Positions 28,686 through 57,006 of a stretch of 64,000 nucleotides of DNA are shown here, piece by piece; the first letter of the stretch is position 1; every line of letters starts with the position of its first letter. The DNA is from Pelagibacteraceae bacterium AG-430-F16. Lineage in GTDB: Bacteria; Pseudomonadota; Alphaproteobacteria; Pelagibacterales; Pelagibacteraceae. A model generated the notes under the pieces. It was not told the DNA's origin. It was given only the letters and a program-made list of their open reading frames with translations, and searched no databases. Where the stretch lies: NCBI GenBank assembly GCA_003213015.1, contig QCOG01000003.1, positions 1 to 64,000 of the forward strand, in the 5' to 3' direction. Position numbers and translations under genes: made by a program.

Positions 28686-30128
28686 ATGACAATTAATTTT
28701 AAAACACCAGAGATAAAAGAGCTCAAACCTAGAATACTGGTTTTAGGTGTAGGTGGCGCTGGAGGAAATGCAATAAATAAAATGATCGAAAGTGGATTAC
28801 AGGGCGTTGAATTTGTTGCAGTAAATACTGATGCACAAGATTTAATTCACAGCAAAGCTAAGGCAAAAATACAAATTGGTTTAAATTTAACGAAAGGTCT
28901 AGGTGCTGGTTCAAAAATTGATATTGGTCAAGCGGCTGCAGACGAGTCATTAAATGAAATAGTAAATTGTTTGCAAGGATCAAACATGGTTTTTATAACT
29001 GCAGGAATGGGTGGTGGAACAGGAACTGGATCTGCGCATGTAATTGCGCGAGCGGCAAAAGAACTTAATATTTTAACAGTGGGTGTCGTAACTTTACCTT
29101 TCTTGTATGAAGGTTCATCTCGAATGAGAAGAGCTCAACAAGGTCTAGAAGAATTAAGAAAGCATGTAGATACTATAATAGTAGTTCCTAATCAAAATCT
29201 ATTTAAAATAGCAAACGAGAAAACAACTTTTGAAGAGTCATTTGAACTCTCAAACGATGTATTGTTACAAGGTGTTCAAAGTGTAACAGATTTAATGGTA
29301 CGTCCTGGTCTAGTTAATTTAGACTTCGCCGATGTAGAGTCAATTATGAGTTCAATGGGTAAAGCAATGATGGGCACTGGTGAAGCTGAAGGTGAAAATA
29401 GAGCTATTAATGCTGCTGAACAGGCTATAAGTAATCCTTTAATTGATGACTATTCTTTAAAAGGAGCTAAAGGTTTATTAATAAATATTACTGGTGGCAA
29501 AGATCTAAAACTTTTTGAAGTTGATGAAGTTGTTAAAAAAATTACTTCCGAGGTTGATCCAGAAGTTGAATTTATTAAAGGTTGTATAATTGATCCTTCC
29601 TTAGAAGGAAGATTAAGAGTATCAATTGTTGCAACCTCATTAGATGGACAACAACCTGAATCAAAGTCAGTTATAAATATGGTCCATAGAATTCAGAACC
29701 GAAATCCAGGCTATTCAGATTTTTCAAATTTGAGACCAAGTTACTCTTATGAAATGAATCAAGGATTATCCACTAGTGGAGCTAATGCACTAAAAATACA
29801 AACGAATGATGTCAAAGTCTCAGAGAATGATTTGATGTCTTCTATGTTAGATGAGAAAATGGCAGTAGAAAATTCTATTACAAGTGAATCCGAGAACGAG
29901 GAGAGTTCTCTCGATGAAAAACTGATTTTAAACGATAATGATGCAAATATTTCAAGCGATGAATCTAATGGACTTGAAAACTTCAATTTAGATGCAGAAG
30001 ATCCTCAATTATTTGATGAGAGACAAAGTATAAACTCAGATCATGAGGCAAATATAAATGAGGACAGTGATACAGACGAAGAAGACGAACTTGAAATACC
30101 AGCATTTTTAAGAAGACAAAAAAATTAA
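28686..30128 (+). CDS. ftsZ: FtsZ, tubulin-like division GTPase
   Basis: 480 residues. The tubulin signature GGGTGTGS lies at 109-116, GVGGAGGNAI at 21-30, and the T7 loop region NLDFADVESIM near 210. After the core (about residue 325) comes an acidic linker of about 140 residues, ending in the conserved C-terminal peptide EIPAFLRRQ that binds FtsA, ZipA-like or other partners. It forms the cytokinetic ring. Its place is odd: in most bacteria ftsZ follows ftsA near the end of the dcw cluster, but here it lies between mraZ and rsmH. No second copy is seen after the ftsA-like gene. Confidence 0.98.
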   Translation: MTINFKTPEIKELKPRILVLGVGGAGGNAINKMIESGLQGVEFVAVNTDAQDLIHSKAKAKIQIGLNLTKGLGAGSKIDIGQAAADESLNEIVNCLQGSNMVFITAGMGGGTGTGSAHVIARAAKELNILTVGVVTLPFLYEGSSRMRRAQQGLEELRKHVDTIIVVPNQNLFKIANEKTTFEESFELSNDVLLQGVQSVTDLMVRPGLVNLDFADVESIMSSMGKAMMGTGEAEGENRAINAAEQAISNPLIDDYSLKGAKGLLINITGGKDLKLFEVDEVVKKITSEVDPEVEFIKGCIIDPSLEGRLRVSIVATSLDGQQPESKSVINMVHRIQNRNPGYSDFSNLRPSYSYEMNQGLSTSGANALKIQTNDVKVSENDLMSSMLDEKMAVENSITSESENEESSLDEKLILNDNDANISSDESNGLENFNLDAEDPQLFDERQSINSDHEANINEDSDTDEEDELEIPAFLRRQKN

Positions 30129-33077: not shown

Positions 33078-35900
33078 ATGTTATTGGGTAAATTAATTAA
33101 AAATATTAAACCAGCGTACAAATCTGTAAAATTTAATAATATTAGATTCAATAGCTTATGTTGTAAACCGAATGATATTTTTTTTTCTATCCAAGGAAAT
33201 AAATTAAAAGGAAATAATTATATTAAAGACGCTATAAAAAATGGCTCAAAAATTATTGTTTCAAATCTAAACTTTGAGGGATTTAATAAAGAAAAAATTT
33301 TATTTATTAAAAATAAAAATCCAAGAAAAGCATTAGCAGAGGCTGCAAACAATTTTTATAAAAAAAAACCTAAAAATATTATCGCTATAACTGGCACAAA
33401 TGGAAAAACATCAATTGCAAATTTTTTTTATCAAATATTGTCTCTAAGTAAAAAAAAGGTTGCTGCCATAGGAACTTTAGGTGTTTTTTCAAAAAAAATT
33501 AAATTTAAGACAAATAATACAACAATAGATCCAATCAAAATGCATCAAATTTTACAAAAATTAAAAAATTTTGATATTGATAACGTAATTATAGAAGCAT
33601 CAAGCCATGGTTTAAAACAACATAGATTGGATGGATTAAATTTAAAAACTGCATTGTTTACGAACTTGTCAAGGGATCATCTAGATTATCATAAAACTTT
33701 TAAAGATTATTTTAATTCTAAACTTATTCTTTTTGATAAATTGTTGCTTAATAAGGGGAATATAATTTTTGAAAATGGAATATCCCAAGAAAAAGACCTT
33801 AAAAAGATTTCAAAAAAAAAGAAGTTGAAGATTTACAAAATAGGTAGTGAAAATTCCTTCATTAACTTGAAAAAAATCCAAAAAATCAATGATAAGAAAA
33901 GAATTGTTTTTAGTATTTTAAAAAAAGATTATTCATTCCATTCTTATCTAATTGGCAGCATTCAGATTAAAAATTTACTTTTTGCAGTTTTGGCTGCATA
34001 TCTATCAGGCATAAGGATTGATACCATTCTAAAAAATATAAGTAAGATTAAACCTATAAATGGAAGACTAGAGCAGATTGGCAAACTAAAGAATAAATCA
34101 AGAGTAATACTTGATTATGCACATTCTCCAGATGCTTTAAAAACAGTAATATCAAATATAAAAGAAGATTTCCCTTTAAGTAAAATTTCATTAGTATTTG
34201 GATGTGGAGGGGATAGAGATAAAAGTAAAAGACCTTTAATGGGAGGTATTGCAAACAAGTATTGTGATAAAATATATTTAACTGACGACAATCCAAGGTT
34301 TGAAGACCCTAATGTCATAAGAGACCAGATTAAAAGGAAAATTAAGAAAAAAAAATATGTTGAAATTTCCTCACGGGCTCATGCTATCTCAAAAGCTGTT
34401 AGTGAATTAAACTCAGGTGATGTTTTAATTGTTGCTGGAAAGGGACACGAAAATTATCAAGAATATAAAAAAAGACTTTTTTTTTCGGATAAATTAGAGA
34501 TTATTAAAGCTATTAGAAAAAAGAATAATTTATTATCGAATTCCCTTAAAACAAATATATTAATTGAAACTTTCAATAATAAAATTTTAAATAAAAGAAC
34601 TCTAATAAACTCAGTGTCTTTAAACTCCAAAGATGTTAAAAAAAATTCAGTATTTTTTGGGGTGAAGGGTCAAAAATTTGATGGAAACAAATTTGGAATT
34701 GAGGCGATAAAAAATAATGCAATTTTAGCAATTACAAATAAGAAATCTAAAAATTCCAGAAATATATTTAGTAGAAATCCTTTCGAGAAACTAAATAAAT
34801 TTAGCTCAGTTTATAGAAAGTCTTTAGACAGTAATAATATTGCAATAACTGGATCTGCTGGAAAAACATCGGTTAAAGACTTAACTGGATTTTGTCTAAA
34901 TAAATTAGATAAAACACATTATTCAAAAAATTCCTTTAATAATAAATACGGTGTGCCTTTAAGTATTATAAACTCACCTCAATCGACAAAGTTCTCAGTT
35001 TTAGAAGTAGGAATGGATAAAAAAGGAGAAATTGACACTTTAACAAAGCTAATAAGACCTAATCTTGGTTTAATAACAAATATCTCATACGCTCATATTA
35101 AGAATTTTAAGAGTCTAGATGAGATTGCAAAAGCTAAGGGTGAAATAATAAATAATATTTTTCCTTCAGGAGTAATGATCATAAATAAAGACGATAAATA
35201 CTGTAATTATTTCATTTCAAAAGCAAAAATGAGAAATTTAAATATTATTACTTTCAGTAAAAAAAAAAAATTAGCTGATATTGTTTATCTTGGCAGAAAA
35301 AAAATTAAAAATGAATTTTTATGTAAATTTTTGATAAAGGGTGAAACAAAATTTTTTAAAATTCCTAATTATTTAATAAATTTCAAAGAAAATATTTTAT
35401 CTACACTAAGTATTATTTCTAATTATTTTAATATAGATGCATTACCTTTTAATTTATTTTTAAATTTTAAAATCTCACAGAGTAGAGGCTCTATTATAAA
35501 GTATAAAAAAGGAAAAAAAAATTTAACTATAATTGATGAAAGTTATAATTCAAATCCACTTTCATTTAAATTTGCATTAGAAAGATTTGACAAAAAATAT
35601 AAGGGTAGTAATAAAAAATTTATTTTGATTGGAAACATGCTTGAATTAGGAAAATTTTCAAAAAAACTTCATATTCAAATTGCAAAATATATTAATAAGT
35701 CAGACATAAATAAAACTTATGTTTATGGCAACTTTACAAAACATACATTTAACAAATTAAAACCACAAATGAGAGGCAAAATATTGAGCAATAAATTAGA
35801 GATTTTGAATTTGATAAAAAAACAATTACCTAATAACAGTTATTTAATGATAAAAGGATCTAACTCAACTGGATTAAATAAAATAATAAAAAATTTGTAA
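33078..35900 (+). CDS. murE-murF: MurE-MurF fusion: UDP-MurNAc-tripeptide and -pentapeptide ligase
   Basis: 940 residues encoding two Mur ligases in one chain. The MurE half (1 to about 485) has GTNGKT at 106-111, the IEASSHGLKQHRL segment, the meso-DAP specificity motif DNPR at 404-407, and GKGHE near 455. The MurF half (about 495-940) has TGSAGKTS at 591-598, LEVGMDKKGEI near 640, and DESYNSNPLS near 815. It adds meso-diaminopimelate then D-Ala-D-Ala to UDP-MurNAc-dipeptide. No stop or new ATG with a ribosome site marks the join, so a true fusion is favoured. Such fusions are known in some proteobacteria, for example Bordetella. Confidence 0.95.
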   Translation: MLLGKLIKNIKPAYKSVKFNNIRFNSLCCKPNDIFFSIQGNKLKGNNYIKDAIKNGSKIIVSNLNFEGFNKEKILFIKNKNPRKALAEAANNFYKKKPKNIIAITGTNGKTSIANFFYQILSLSKKKVAAIGTLGVFSKKIKFKTNNTTIDPIKMHQILQKLKNFDIDNVIIEASSHGLKQHRLDGLNLKTALFTNLSRDHLDYHKTFKDYFNSKLILFDKLLLNKGNIIFENGISQEKDLKKISKKKKLKIYKIGSENSFINLKKIQKINDKKRIVFSILKKDYSFHSYLIGSIQIKNLLFAVLAAYLSGIRIDTILKNISKIKPINGRLEQIGKLKNKSRVILDYAHSPDALKTVISNIKEDFPLSKISLVFGCGGDRDKSKRPLMGGIANKYCDKIYLTDDNPRFEDPNVIRDQIKRKIKKKKYVEISSRAHAISKAVSELNSGDVLIVAGKGHENYQEYKKRLFFSDKLEIIKAIRKKNNLLSNSLKTNILIETFNNKILNKRTLINSVSLNSKDVKKNSVFFGVKGQKFDGNKFGIEAIKNNAILAITNKKSKNSRNIFSRNPFEKLNKFSSVYRKSLDSNNIAITGSAGKTSVKDLTGFCLNKLDKTHYSKNSFNNKYGVPLSIINSPQSTKFSVLEVGMDKKGEIDTLTKLIRPNLGLITNISYAHIKNFKSLDEIAKAKGEIINNIFPSGVMIINKDDKYCNYFISKAKMRNLNIITFSKKKKLADIVYLGRKKIKNEFLCKFLIKGETKFFKIPNYLINFKENILSTLSIISNYFNIDALPFNLFLNFKISQSRGSIIKYKKGKKNLTIIDESYNSNPLSFKFALERFDKKYKGSNKKFILIGNMLELGKFSKKLHIQIAKYINKSDINKTYVYGNFTKHTFNKLKPQMRGKILSNKLEILNLIKKQLPNNSYLMIKGSNSTGLNKIIKNL

Positions 35901-42754: not shown

Positions 42755-43666
42755 ATGAAAAAAAGGATTCTTATTCTTGGAGGTGGTATTTCAGGGGAAA
42801 GATCTATTAGTCTCAAAACCGCAAAAGCAGTGCAGAGCTGTATAAAAAAAAAATATAATTGCAAAATAGTTGAACCTGATGAGAATTTAACAAAAAAAAT
42901 TGATAGATTTTCTCCCCATGTTGTTTTCAACGCTTTACACGGAAGATTTGGTGAAGATGGTTTCATTCAAACCTACTTAGAAAGTAAAGGGGTTAGGTAC
43001 ACTCATTCGGGTGTCTTTTCCTCTATGATGGCAATGGATAAAGAAATTTCAAAAAAATTATTTATTAGAAATAAAATTTTAACACCAAAATTTCAAAAAA
43101 TAAGAACAAATTTAAATAAAAAAGAAGTTATAAAATTATTAAAAAAAAAAATTAAGTTTCCTGTAGTTATTAAACCAATAAATGAGGGGTCAAGTTTAGG
43201 TGTTTATATTTGTAATGAAAAAAATATTATTAAAAATTTAAAAAAACTTAAAGCTTACGATGAGGTTCTAGTGGAAAAATTTATACCAGGAAGAGAAATT
43301 CAAGTGGCAATACTTGGTAAAAAAAAACTAGGTGTCATAGAGTTAAGACCCAAAAGAAAGTTTTATGATTATAAAGCGAAGTACAGCTCTAAGGCGAAAA
43401 CAAAACATGTTATACCTGTAAATATTAAAAAAAAAGATTATCAAAATGTGATGAATATAGCCTTAAAAGCACATAAAGTTTTAAAGTGTAGGGGAGTGAC
43501 TAGATCTGATTTTAAATTTTACAATGGAAAGTTTTATCTTTTGGAAACTAATACTCAGCCGGGAATGACCAATCTTTCATTAGTTCCAGAAATAGCATTG
43601 TATCATGGTATGAGTTTCTTTTCGTTGATAGACTGGATTATTAAAGATGCTTCAAAAAATAGATAA
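42755..43666 (+). CDS. ddl: D-alanine--D-alanine ligase
   Basis: 303 residues of the ATP-grasp fold. ILILGGGISGERSISLKTA at the start, NALHGRFGEDGFIQTYLE near 64, MAMDKEISKKLF near 92, IKPINEGSSLGVYI near 138 and LLETNTQPGMTNLSLVPE near 258 are the DdlB blocks. The dipeptide it makes is used by the MurF half of the fusion upstream. The gene starts on the base after the murB stop and overlaps ftsQ by 20 bp. Confidence 0.96.
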   Translation: MKKRILILGGGISGERSISLKTAKAVQSCIKKKYNCKIVEPDENLTKKIDRFSPHVVFNALHGRFGEDGFIQTYLESKGVRYTHSGVFSSMMAMDKEISKKLFIRNKILTPKFQKIRTNLNKKEVIKLLKKKIKFPVVIKPINEGSSLGVYICNEKNIIKNLKKLKAYDEVLVEKFIPGREIQVAILGKKKLGVIELRPKRKFYDYKAKYSSKAKTKHVIPVNIKKKDYQNVMNIALKAHKVLKCRGVTRSDFKFYNGKFYLLETNTQPGMTNLSLVPEIALYHGMSFFSLIDWIIKDASKNR

Positions 43667-44324
43667 TAAGAAATATATTTTTTTTTATTTGATAATTTTT
43701 ATAATTTTATCCTCAATACATAATTCTAATTTTAAAAATTATAATTTTTTTACTATTAAAAAAATTGAGGTTGTTGGTTTAAATGAAACTGATAATTTAC
43801 TTTTAGAAAATAAATTAACAAATTTGATTGGATCGAATATTTTTTCACTTAATAAAGAGTCGTTTAAATTAATAAACACTGTAAATTTAATAAAAAGTTA
43901 TAATGTAAAAAAAATATACCCGAATCAAGTAAAAGTTAATCTTGAGCCAGCTGTGGCCATCAGTGTTGTCATATATTTTAATGAAAAAGTTATCTTAGGA
44001 AATAACGGAAAAATAATTTACTTAAAAAACTTACCAAAAAACGTTCCTGAGGTTACTGGAACCAATGATATAAACAAAGTTTTTCAAACTATAAAAATTT
44101 TTAACAAATCTAATTTTGACATTAAAAATATAAAAAAAATTAATTTTTTTCCAAGCGAAAGAATAGATATTGAATTAGAAAATGACAAAAAGATTAAATT
44201 TCCAATTAATTTAACGATTAGAAGTTTAAATTTTAGCAGGAGACTAATTGAAAAGGAAGAATTCAATAAATCAAAAATTATAGATTTGAGAATTCCAGGT
44301 AAGATTATAACTTATGATAAATAA
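43647..44324 (+). CDS. ftsQ: FtsQ / DivIB-like division protein
   Basis: 225 residues: a short cytoplasmic stub, one membrane helix (about 10-25), then a POTRA domain (FFTIKKIEVVGLNETDNLLLENKL ... NVKKIYPNQVKVNLEPAVAISV) and the FtsQ beta domain. The POTRA pattern and position between ddl and ftsA are the basis. It is shorter than the 270-300 residues usual in proteobacteria. It overlaps the ftsA-like gene by 11 bp. Confidence 0.85.
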   Translation: MLQKIDNKKYIFFYLIIFIILSSIHNSNFKNYNFFTIKKIEVVGLNETDNLLLENKLTNLIGSNIFSLNKESFKLINTVNLIKSYNVKKIYPNQVKVNLEPAVAISVVIYFNEKVILGNNGKIIYLKNLPKNVPEVTGTNDINKVFQTIKIFNKSNFDIKNIKKINFFPSERIDIELENDKKIKFPINLTIRSLNFSRRLIEKEEFNKSKIIDLRIPGKIITYDK

Positions 44325-45018
44325 AGATGTCCAAAACTTTTATTTTGCAATAGTGGGTCAAAACCTTCACATTAATTATTTTAGCTCTAAAGATTATGAT
44401 TCCAGTTATCAAAAAAAATACTTAATGCCTGATACTTTAGGTAATAATTTAAACTTGATTATAGTAAAGAAATTTATTTCAGAAAAAATTAAAGATTTTG
44501 AAAAAAATGTTGGAAATTTTATTGAAAAAATTAATTTAATTACTGATGCTCAGTCTGATCAATACTCATTTAGCTTAAAAAATAAATTTGATACTGATAG
44601 AATAAAAGAGACCGATGTTCTAAGACTAATTAGTGATGCAAAGCAACAAATTATAAGAAACAATAAAGATTCTGTTATTTTACATTTGATAGTTGATAAA
44701 TACATAGTCGATGGCGAAGAATATTTAGAGTTTCCTGAGAACGTAAATTATAAGGAATTTGTTGTTGAAGTTAGTTTTATCACAATTCAAAACACAATTG
44801 TAAAAACACTAAATAAAATCTTTAAAGATTGTAATATTGAGGTAAAAAAAATTATCAGCCATCAATATTCAAGTAGATTTGCAGAAAAAACCGATACAAG
44901 TCCTTGTATTGCTGGAAAAAAGGTGAGTGATGGCATTAACCCTTCAGAGGTAATAATTTATAATCTTTATTCTAAAAAGCAGGGTTTCTTTGAAAAAATG
45001 TTCAATTTCTTCAGTTAA
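44314..45018 (+). CDS. ftsA: Reduced FtsA-like protein (1A/1C region plus amphipathic tail)
   Basis: 234 residues, against about 410-420 for FtsA. The segment from about 110 (DVLRLISDAKQQI ... VILHLIVDKYIVDGEEYLEFPENV ... FVVEVSFIT ... CNIEVKKIISHQYSSRF) matches the FtsA 1C (SHS2) domain, whose consensus contains LHxxPxxYxVDG. The N-terminal ~90 residues look like a decayed 1A part without the GT(S) phosphate loop. Domains 2A and 2B, with the second ATP loop and the FtsZ-tail site, are missing. The protein ends KKQGFFEKMFNFFS, like the amphipathic membrane-targeting helix that closes FtsA. It sits exactly where ftsA belongs, between ftsQ and lpxC. Confidence 0.7.
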   Translation: MINKDVQNFYFAIVGQNLHINYFSSKDYDSSYQKKYLMPDTLGNNLNLIIVKKFISEKIKDFEKNVGNFIEKINLITDAQSDQYSFSLKNKFDTDRIKETDVLRLISDAKQQIIRNNKDSVILHLIVDKYIVDGEEYLEFPENVNYKEFVVEVSFITIQNTIVKTLNKIFKDCNIEVKKIISHQYSSRFAEKTDTSPCIAGKKVSDGINPSEVIIYNLYSKKQGFFEKMFNFFS

Positions 45019-45085: not shown

Positions 45086-46006
45086 ATGTCAATTTTAAAG
45101 CAAAAAACACTAAAAAAAGAAATTAATTTGTCTGGTGTTGGTCTTCATTCTGGAAAAAGTGTTAATATTAAGTTAGTTCCCCAGAAGCCAAATATTGGAA
45201 TATATTTTAAAAGAACTGATTTAACTTCAAACAATATAATTTACCCAAGTGTTTTTAATGTTTCAAATGCTTCATATTGCACAAAGATTTCAAATGAGTA
45301 TGGAGTATCTGTTTCAACTATTGAACATTTAATGGCTGCGTTATATGGGAAAGGTGTAGATAATTTATTAGTAGAAATAGATGCTGAAGAAGTACCAATA
45401 TTTGATGGATCTTCTAAAAATTTTATAGAAGCAATTGATTCAGCTGATTTTGAAATTAGCGACCAACCAATTAAAATTATTACTATAAATAAAGAAATAG
45501 TTTTTAAAGAGGGTGAAAAATCTATCTCCTTTAAGCCAAGTAAAATAAGTTTAGAAATTGATTTTGAGATAAATTTTAAAAATGAACTAATCAACACTCA
45601 AAAAAATAAAATAAACATTTACATGGATGATTTATCTGAAATGTATAATTCAAGAACGTTTTGTTTATATGAGGATATAGAAAAACTCAAAAATTTAAAT
45701 TTAGCTAAAGGCGGTTCTTTGGATAATGCGATTGTTGTTAAACAAAACAAAATATTAAATAAAGAAAAACTTAGAAACGAAAAAGAATTTGTGAATCACA
45801 AGATATTAGATTGTCTCGGGGATCTATATTTGTCGGGTTTCAAAATGGTTGGTAAAATTACTTCTTGTCAAGGTGGTCACCACATCACTAATCAAGGCTT
45901 AAGAAAATTACTTGGTAAAAATGAAAATTTCTCTATAATTGAGCTAAAAGAGAAAAATATTCCGCATTCCTTTTTGAACAAGAATATTCTAAAATCTATC
46001 GCTTAA
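45086..46006 (+). CDS. lpxC: LpxC, UDP-3-O-acyl-GlcNAc deacetylase
   Basis: 306 residues. GVGLHSGKSVNIKLVP, VSTIEHLMAALYGKGVDN (zinc His in EHLMAAL) near 76, EVPIFDGSSKNF near 108, and HKILDCLGDLYLSG near 239 (HKxxDxxGD zinc ligands) are diagnostic. SCQGGHHITNQ carries the catalytic His. It performs the committed step of lipid A synthesis, so this cell makes lipid A. It follows the ftsA-like gene by a 67-bp spacer. Confidence 0.97.
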   Translation: MSILKQKTLKKEINLSGVGLHSGKSVNIKLVPQKPNIGIYFKRTDLTSNNIIYPSVFNVSNASYCTKISNEYGVSVSTIEHLMAALYGKGVDNLLVEIDAEEVPIFDGSSKNFIEAIDSADFEISDQPIKIITINKEIVFKEGEKSISFKPSKISLEIDFEINFKNELINTQKNKINIYMDDLSEMYNSRTFCLYEDIEKLKNLNLAKGGSLDNAIVVKQNKILNKEKLRNEKEFVNHKILDCLGDLYLSGFKMVGKITSCQGGHHITNQGLRKLLGKNENFSIIELKEKNIPHSFLNKNILKSIA

Positions 46007-56701: not shown

Positions 56702-56966
56702 TAAAAGGGGCGTTCTGTTGCCAGGTGCCCCAAAACCCCGTTACTTAATTAATAAATTAATTAAGCAGCAAGAGCAAATTTATCATTTGCAATTATAAAC
56801 AGCCCGTTTCGGTGGAACAATTCCGAACGAAAAAATAGCCTTTAGACATCCGTCGATCCTAGTTCACCCCCGTAAGTTGTAAATGGTGGAGGTGGTGGGT
56901 ACTGCCCCCACGTCCGTAATGTTTATTACGAAATTCGTTTATCGTCATAGTTGGAAAACCAACCCT
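56702..56966 (-). ncRNA. ssrA: Circularly permuted two-piece tmRNA
   Basis: On the minus strand the acceptor piece comes first (about 56966 to 56884) and ends in encoded CCA after the T-arm GTGGG-GGCAGTA-CCCAC. A 12-nt spacer follows, then the coding piece from 56871 starting GGGGGTG, which pairs 7 bp with CACCTCC of the acceptor piece (one G-T). ACTAGGATCGACGGA is the conserved 5' region. The tag reading frame at 56790-56761 encodes ANDKFALAA and a stop. The GGCAGTA T-loop is typical of two-piece tmRNAs. It rescues stalled ribosomes with SmpB. The hairpin GGGGC...GCCCCTTTT near 56706-56731 ends the coding piece. Confidence 0.93.
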
Positions 56967-57006
56967 TTTAATATAATTAATTTATTATAAATTGCATTAT
57001 TTTTTT

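Follow-up and report, generated by a model that had tools for sequence, protein, structure and literature searches.

A conserved short FtsA of Pelagibacter that retains domain I and a C-terminal tail and lacks domain II

The window, i.e., the whole stretch of 64,000 nucleotides analyzed here, carries a dcw cluster in the order mraZ-ftsZ-mraW-ftsI-murEF-mraY-murD-ftsW-murG-murC-murB-ddl-ftsQ-ftsA-lpxC, an order that recurs whether FtsA is short or long, within the reach of each contig; gene names of the operon other than ftsQ, ftsA, and ftsZ were assigned from sequence and order. In the related loci read, as in the window, ftsA holds the place beside ftsQ; in the window it is a short ftsA (44314..45018, plus strand), which encodes 234 aa and, according to Pfam, NCBIfam, and profile comparisons, domain I only. 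Its reading frame overlaps the 3' end of the preceding ftsQ (43647..44324, plus strand; Pfam POTRA_1 over cut-off), and the next downstream gene is lpxC (45086..46006, plus strand), named from sequence and gene order and adjoining ftsA in relatives. The ftsZ gene (28686..30128, plus strand; TIGR00065, 390 bits, over cut-off) lies behind mraZ and not beside ftsA, and it adjoins mraW in all 67 related loci holding both, with short and long FtsA alike, and follows mraZ wherever the locus extends that far. The FtsAs of the genus that we compared with the short form are long (381 to 392 aa, n=22) or mid (363 to 378 aa, n=10), and those of other genera measure 395 to 419 aa in 18 loci, all loci having been picked from match lists and not at random.

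Two side observations concern the same stretch. murE and murF, named from sequence, form a single 940-aa frame (33078-35900); one frame of at least 900 aa is seen in 62 loci, whereas six loci, from genera g5, g9, and g12, have two or three frames instead and locus L131 (g3) shows a split of 122+843. A permuted alphaproteobacterial tmRNA with the tag ANDKFALAA lies at 56704-57001 on the minus strand.

Along the plus strand, the short ftsA can be divided as follows: (i) residues 1 to 85 (44314..44568) are the N-terminal part of subdomain IA by alignment with E. coli and long FtsA, in which the phosphate-1 loop [DE]xG, at about residues 9 to 25, is gone; (ii) residues 86 to 160 (44569..44793) are the IC (1C, SHS2) domain recognized by Pfam SHS2_FTSA, including LHLIVDKYIVDG; (iii) residues 161 to 190 (44794..44883) align as the second part of IA and contain tyrosine 185, which 98% of the 47 short rows retain; (iv) residues 191 to 198 (44884..44907) are the junction of the deletion in alignments of short, mid, and long FtsA, where about 135 to 154 residues of the mid and long forms are absent, so that IIA, IIB, and the phosphate-2 and adenine motifs all fall inside the missing part; (v) residues 199 to 213 (44908..44952) align as the last helix with a GxNxxEV motif, the glutamate of which is present in 47/47 short rows aligned; and (vi) residues 221 to 234 (44974..45015) form the C-terminal FtsA-type tail KKQGFFEKMFNFFS, a presumed membrane helix, whose three phenylalanines are kept in 96 to 100% of the 47 short rows. 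The preliminary description had read this tail as amphipathic. GFFEKxF is well conserved across short orthologues, but the tail is not measurably amphipathic: the hydrophobic moment of the 12 residues before the last was not above that of same-letter shuffles in the short, mid, and other-genus groups and, among the groups tested, exceeded shuffles only in the long FtsA of the genus.

Several comparisons connect the protein with FtsA. The proposed 1C domain was recovered by Pfam SHS2_FTSA (PF02491), which matches residues 93 to 156 at 28.7 bits against a cut-off of 25.4, SHS2 (IC) being the sole Pfam domain over cut-off. The NCBIfam profile TIGR01174 (ftsA) aligns residues 47 to 189 to its positions 45 to 186 of 371 (E 2e-13); the score of 50.2 bits is well under the equivalog cut-off of 175.85, but the four mid and long relatives scanned also remain under it (75 to 103 bits), and this cut-off alone therefore cannot separate short from long. 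A profile built from the window protein together with nine close relatives aligned residues 94 to 189 to residues 101 to 194 of E. coli FtsA (7q6d; E 2.3e-4), and a profile of 34 short FtsAs, compared with one made of E. coli and long Pelagibacterales FtsAs, reached a probability of 99.7 and an E of 7.5e-27 over E. coli residues 6 to 198, a match that is not to E. coli alone since the target profile contains the long relatives. In these alignments, the window protein runs from the N terminus through IC to about E. coli residue 198 and continues with the last helix and the FEKxF tail. The predicted structure is a weak model built on 10 close sequences (mean pLDDT 48.6, pTM 0.38). With it, 15 of the best 18 Foldseek rows were titled FtsA, and the other three were entry 3wt0 ("cell division protein"), which we take to be FtsA (best E 2e-5, TM at most 0.31); VIA-align with the same model returned common alpha/beta folds up to Z 8.9 over residues 79 to 189, with no FtsA among the 50 matches listed. 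The last helices of an actin-like fold return to pack against domain I; hence, the retained part looks like the whole of domain I and the missing part like the whole of domain II. Altogether, family matches, alignments, and the conserved locus bear out an FtsA reduced to 1A/1C plus an FtsA-type tail, without 2A and 2B.

The absence of the ATP loops and of the 2B pocket, also claimed from the first inspection, holds as well: no loops are recognizable and domain II is a gap in the alignment. The phosphate-1 motif [DE]xG is present in 0/47 short FtsAs of the genus compared with 10/10 mid and 22/22 long ones, and PF14450, which covers part of domain II, gave no match in the window FtsA up to E 1. 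The motif calls for caution, however, because among the 18 full-length FtsAs from other genera (L118-L125, L128-L137) only 10 show [DE]xG at the aligned position, which may reflect divergence or misalignment. By descent, the protein belongs with FtsA; judged by its ATP loops, domain II, and equivalog score, it falls outside the definition of FtsA, and "FtsA-derived domain-I protein" is therefore the better name.

The remainder of ftsA was searched for downstream and elsewhere. A frameshift at position 45018 hiding 2A and 2B is excluded, with 67 bases to the start of lpxC and the same short frame recurring in many genomes. More generally, a sequencing or assembly artifact or a frameshift concealing the rest of the gene has a practically negligible probability, because those 67 bases leave no room for it and because a like length is found in many separately assembled genomes, including single-contig ones. 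No full-length ftsA was found elsewhere in the window genome, which is 92.8% complete, and 11 other genomes with short FtsA agree. The window genome has a single SHS2_FTSA match; for PF14450, just one of its proteins exceeds the cut-off, a protein of 344 aa recognized as MreB from its sequence. At the ftsA locus, PF14450 was matched in none of 12 short-FtsA genomes (the window genome and 11 others; five of the 12 are single-contig at 99 to 100% completeness), compared with matches over cut-off in 9/9 mid or long genomes of the genus and in 4/5 genomes of other genera, the fifth giving a weak match. A domain II encoded as a separate gene was considered and rejected, since 11 of the 12 short genomes have only one, MreB-sized, PF14450 match over cut-off and G097 has none; weak matches below the cut-off fell in frames of 529 to 646 aa in G000, G083, and G093.

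The short FtsA is not a one-genome oddity, and many members of Pelagibacter carry it. From 38 rows (23 short, 6 mid, and 9 long, thus leaning to short) we built a profile of the N-terminal part that all forms share, and it found matches in 267 of the 399 genomes of the genus. Among the best 150 of these 267 matches, 114 lie in frames of 231 to 246 aa and 36 in frames of 370 to 406 aa, with none between, frame lengths running from stop to stop; the 114 of the best 150 is not a prevalence, given the short-leaning profile, the 117 further matches, and the 132 genomes without a match, many of which are incomplete. With a single protein as the query, matches were obtained in 90 of 151, and viral contigs yielded no relative. 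Standard annotation can miss the gene: among five short relatives scanned, SHS2_FTSA was over cut-off in one (L143), below it in one (L233), and without a match at E 0.01 in three, these three matching no Pfam family at that threshold and one of them (L145) no NCBIfam family at E 0.001 either.

The short ftsA is under purifying selection and looks like a working gene. Its median dN/dS is 0.153 (45 pairs from ten close relatives), with 0.246 for the closest pair (the window and L065), and among its neighbors ftsQ has a median of 0.238, ddl of 0.074, and lpxC of 0.047 (nine sequences, 36 pairs). Short FtsAs evolve fast and form long branches in trees, which, together with the eroded ATP loop and a frame split in two in one single-contig genome (G078), could point to a vanishing relic, in which the loss of domain II is being followed by decay of the remainder. 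We regard such a decay as improbable, in view of the dN/dS, of the intact 231- to 246-aa frames in 114 of the best 150 matches, and of the preservation of the tail motif and of GxNxxEV over deep divergence. The split frame (L101:16763-17462) consists of overlapping 75- and 174-aa frames and may be a sequence error, a slippage site, or a broken gene. With the gene kept in its place and apparently by selection, FtsA thus seems able to work without its ATP- and FtsZ-binding half.

How the short form came to be distributed was addressed by comparing trees. The neighbor-protein trees (seven proteins, 77 loci; six proteins, 83 loci) place short FtsA in several separate lineages. The starred branches of the six-protein tree force five changes of the short state, and one short clade is rejected by the species data (difference in lnL 321, pAU 2.7e-78, 60 rows). 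These results, as well as the possibility that fast-evolving short proteins attract each other in trees, would suit a history in which domain II was lost repeatedly and independently, always at the same structural joint, a question of history and not of function. In contrast, the ftsA sequences do not require it: they accept one short clade (pAU 0.454), and in the 65-row ftsA tree a single branch parts the short FtsAs from all others (78/95; 80% of 200 bootstraps). Moreover, the ftsA data reject groupings of the species tree, namely, seven mid with 21 short rows (pAU 0.0018), L102 with L104 and L143 (0.022), the window clade with L116/L229 (1.8e-6), and L233 with the long rows (0.017), L233 having been held in the last test with all 17 long rows, a slightly wider grouping than that of the species tree.

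The pair L232 and L233 also speaks against repeated loss. Their ftsA sequences are 60% identical, mutually closest in our table, and joined at 100/98, against the species data, which reject L232 and L233 as sisters (pAU 0.0013). Elsewhere, the identity of the two is 37% for ftsQ, 47% for murG, 62% for ftsW, 63% for lpxC, 70% for murC, 72% for ddl, and 81% for mraY, and these other genes have equal or closer matches elsewhere in the table (the ddl of L233 being tied with others at 71 to 72%). The deletion joint, in addition, is of nearly equal length in all groups shown in the alignment. The conflict between the species and ftsA trees suggests movement of the short allele from one lineage to another. 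Hence, the simplest reading is a single in-frame loss of domain II from a ~370-aa FtsA of the genus followed by in-place replacement between lineages, and we consider repeated loss a somewhat doubtful history. The window clade stands beside a short/mid clade in the 77-locus tree (91) and beside the long L116/L229 in the 83-locus tree (95), and therefore no exact sister is claimed for it. The 77-locus tree was made without L136 and L149 (too few genes) and L167 and L173 (ends missing), the 83-locus tree without L230 (short contig), the ftsA alignments without L101 (split frame), and the 65-row ftsA tree without 14 near-duplicates.

If FtsA has lost its 2B pocket, the ligand of that pocket has stayed. 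As described at first, the FtsZ of the window keeps the EIPAFLRRQ tail (EIPAFLRRQKN, 30093..30125, plus strand), and EIPAFLR[RK]Q is present in all rows with ftsZ, i.e., 39/39 short, 4/4 mid, 14/14 long, and 17/17 from other genera. The tail being conserved in every ftsZ read, what the missing pocket would hold has not changed, and an FtsZ tail altered to suit the short FtsA was discarded as an explanation, no change being seen in the rows read. Two further observations concern the FtsZ C-terminal region. A second conserved stretch, NGLENF/NDLKEF-like, lies in the linker some 30 to 60 residues before the tail in 52/57 rows of the genus and 0/17 of other genera, and, judged from the sequences, it is possibly a second binding motif; PxLF occurs within the last 80 residues in 69/74 rows.

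Partners and other tethers were searched for by family. FtsN, looked for through the SPOR family (PF05036), gave no match in the window genome at E 0.001; across 22 genomes, there were weak matches in eight, seven over cut-off, and the four SPOR frames that were readable among these eight look like lipoproteins, which led us to reject them as the FtsN partner. The FtsQ of the window has only about 9 residues ahead of its hydrophobic stretch. With no SPOR-type FtsN candidate in the window genome and so short an FtsQ N terminus, there is as yet little in favor of the earlier suggestion that the protein connects 1C with FtsN/FtsQ alone. SepF was over cut-off in 0/22 genomes, with weak matches up to E 1 in 7/22, and the Pfam scan of the window FtsA found no SepF domain (PF04472) up to E 1. 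FtsE was over its equivalog cut-off in 0/22 genomes, related ABC proteins being present in 22/22. ZapA was over cut-off in 21/22 genomes, with short and long FtsA alike, and thus does not explain the difference between them. Upstream of it, a frame that looks like a coiled coil by eye overlaps the start of zapA in G000 and G026 (L188, L190) and is possibly a ZapA partner.

In Caulobacter, FtsA arrives late at the division site, and FtsA may thus not be the main FtsZ tether in alphaproteobacteria. If so, the loss of domain II would be tolerable, which favors an adaptor working on the divisome side independently of ATP. The published domain roles can be set beside this. In the passages of PMC8998562 concerned, FtsZ binding lies in 2B, ATP between 1A, 2A, and 2B, and the oligomer contacts between 1A and 1C and between 2A and 2B; in those of PMC7613929, FtsA double filaments of E. 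coli and Vibrio have IC-IC as the lateral and IIA-IIB as the longitudinal contact, and the IA-IC cleft of FtsA binds the FtsN tail. Seen against these roles, what remains in the short FtsA is the divisome side, and what has gone is the side of filament formation and FtsZ binding.

We propose that an FtsA was cut to domain I by in-frame loss, moved between lineages, and now serves as an ATP-independent, membrane-side adaptor of the divisome, a reading to which we give a probability of about one-half and whose functional part we infer. The tail would hold the short FtsA at the membrane, IC-IC contacts would let it cluster, and the IA-IC cleft would bind a short peptide from the cytoplasmic part of a divisome protein; once bound to the peptide, the short FtsA would recruit or activate the septal wall machinery. 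It would do so without the actin-like IIA-IIB contact and without the 2B pocket, and FtsZ would be mainly tethered by something else. This adaptor role is weakened by the lack of a recognized partner (FtsN by SPOR), by the very short FtsQ N terminus, by the lack of a recognized SepF or FtsE tether, by the poor structure model, and by a tail that is not measurably amphipathic, and the fast evolution of the short FtsA could also mean decay.

Alternatively, the short FtsA could still be the main FtsZ tether and hold the tail at a new place, for example the IA-IC cleft or a face bared by the loss of domain II, which we regard as possible, if on the whole doubtful. That the FtsZ tail is unchanged in 39/39 short rows suggests that it still has a binder. 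Neither a SepF- nor an FtsE-type tether is recognized in the 22 genomes, and the allele seems functional in new lineages, as a self-sufficient tether would be; moreover, the FtsN and PilN peptides bind the IA-IC clefts of FtsA and PilM, respectively, in the passages of PMC7613929 devoted to them. However, the tail is equally conserved with long FtsA and may serve other binders, and the only conserved patch specific to the short proteins that we saw is GxNxxEV, itself partly shared with the mid form. In its boldest form, which we judge unlikely, a half-actin FtsA devoid of nucleotide, longitudinal interface, and FtsZ pocket would grip the FtsZ tail, itself unaltered, through a new site that may be the IA-IC cleft, and would spread between species as a replaceable allele. 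A large part of one of the ocean's most abundant bacterial genera would then divide with half an actin, and the ATP cycle and actin-like polymerization of FtsA would be dispensable for its essential work.

Whatever its function, the short FtsA is a real, conserved variant and is undescribed as far as the open PMC literature shows. Judged from titles and abstract starts, the open-access papers listed there include none about a shortened SAR11 FtsA. In the passages concerned, PMC2877005 reports that Pelagibacter shows no ctrA and holds nothing on Pelagibacter FtsA, and the FtsA and Pelagibacter passages of PMC7203096, PMC10580974, PMC10906006, and PMC11994032 do not describe Pelagibacter FtsA. 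The ATP binding, polymerization, and FtsZ grip of FtsA are at the center of current models of division activation. A genus that has species with and without domain II constitutes a natural deletion experiment, in which what the membrane tail and IC do comes apart from what depends on filaments and FtsZ.

Among known systems, the short form resembles FtsA of E. coli and Thermotoga maritima in its place behind ftsQ, in IA and IC, in the last helix, and in the FEKxF-type tail; unlike E. coli FtsA, it has neither IIA and IIB nor the FtsZ-tail pocket nor recognizable ATP loops, and it measures 234 versus 420 aa. It shares its locus with the mid and long FtsAs of the genus, which differ in keeping domain II and [DE]xG (32/32 for the loop); the mid form has a GxNKQEVVIVPKK-GFFEKLFHFF ending common to several short forms, and the window clade is 29% identical to the mid profile in the profile comparison. 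In other bacteria, SepF is a small membrane adaptor of FtsZ that needs no ATP; the short FtsA is like it in size and, as proposed, in its independence of ATP and its place at the membrane, no relation between the two being shown. PilM of the type IV pilus retains domain II and lies in gene surroundings that differ from those of ftsA, two points on which it is unlike the short FtsA. As described in the relevant parts of the sources, a B. subtilis Z-ring can be formed with FtsZ and SepF (PMC11790237), and PilM is like FtsA in having an IC subdomain and an IA-IC cleft that binds a short cytoplasmic peptide (PMC7613929).
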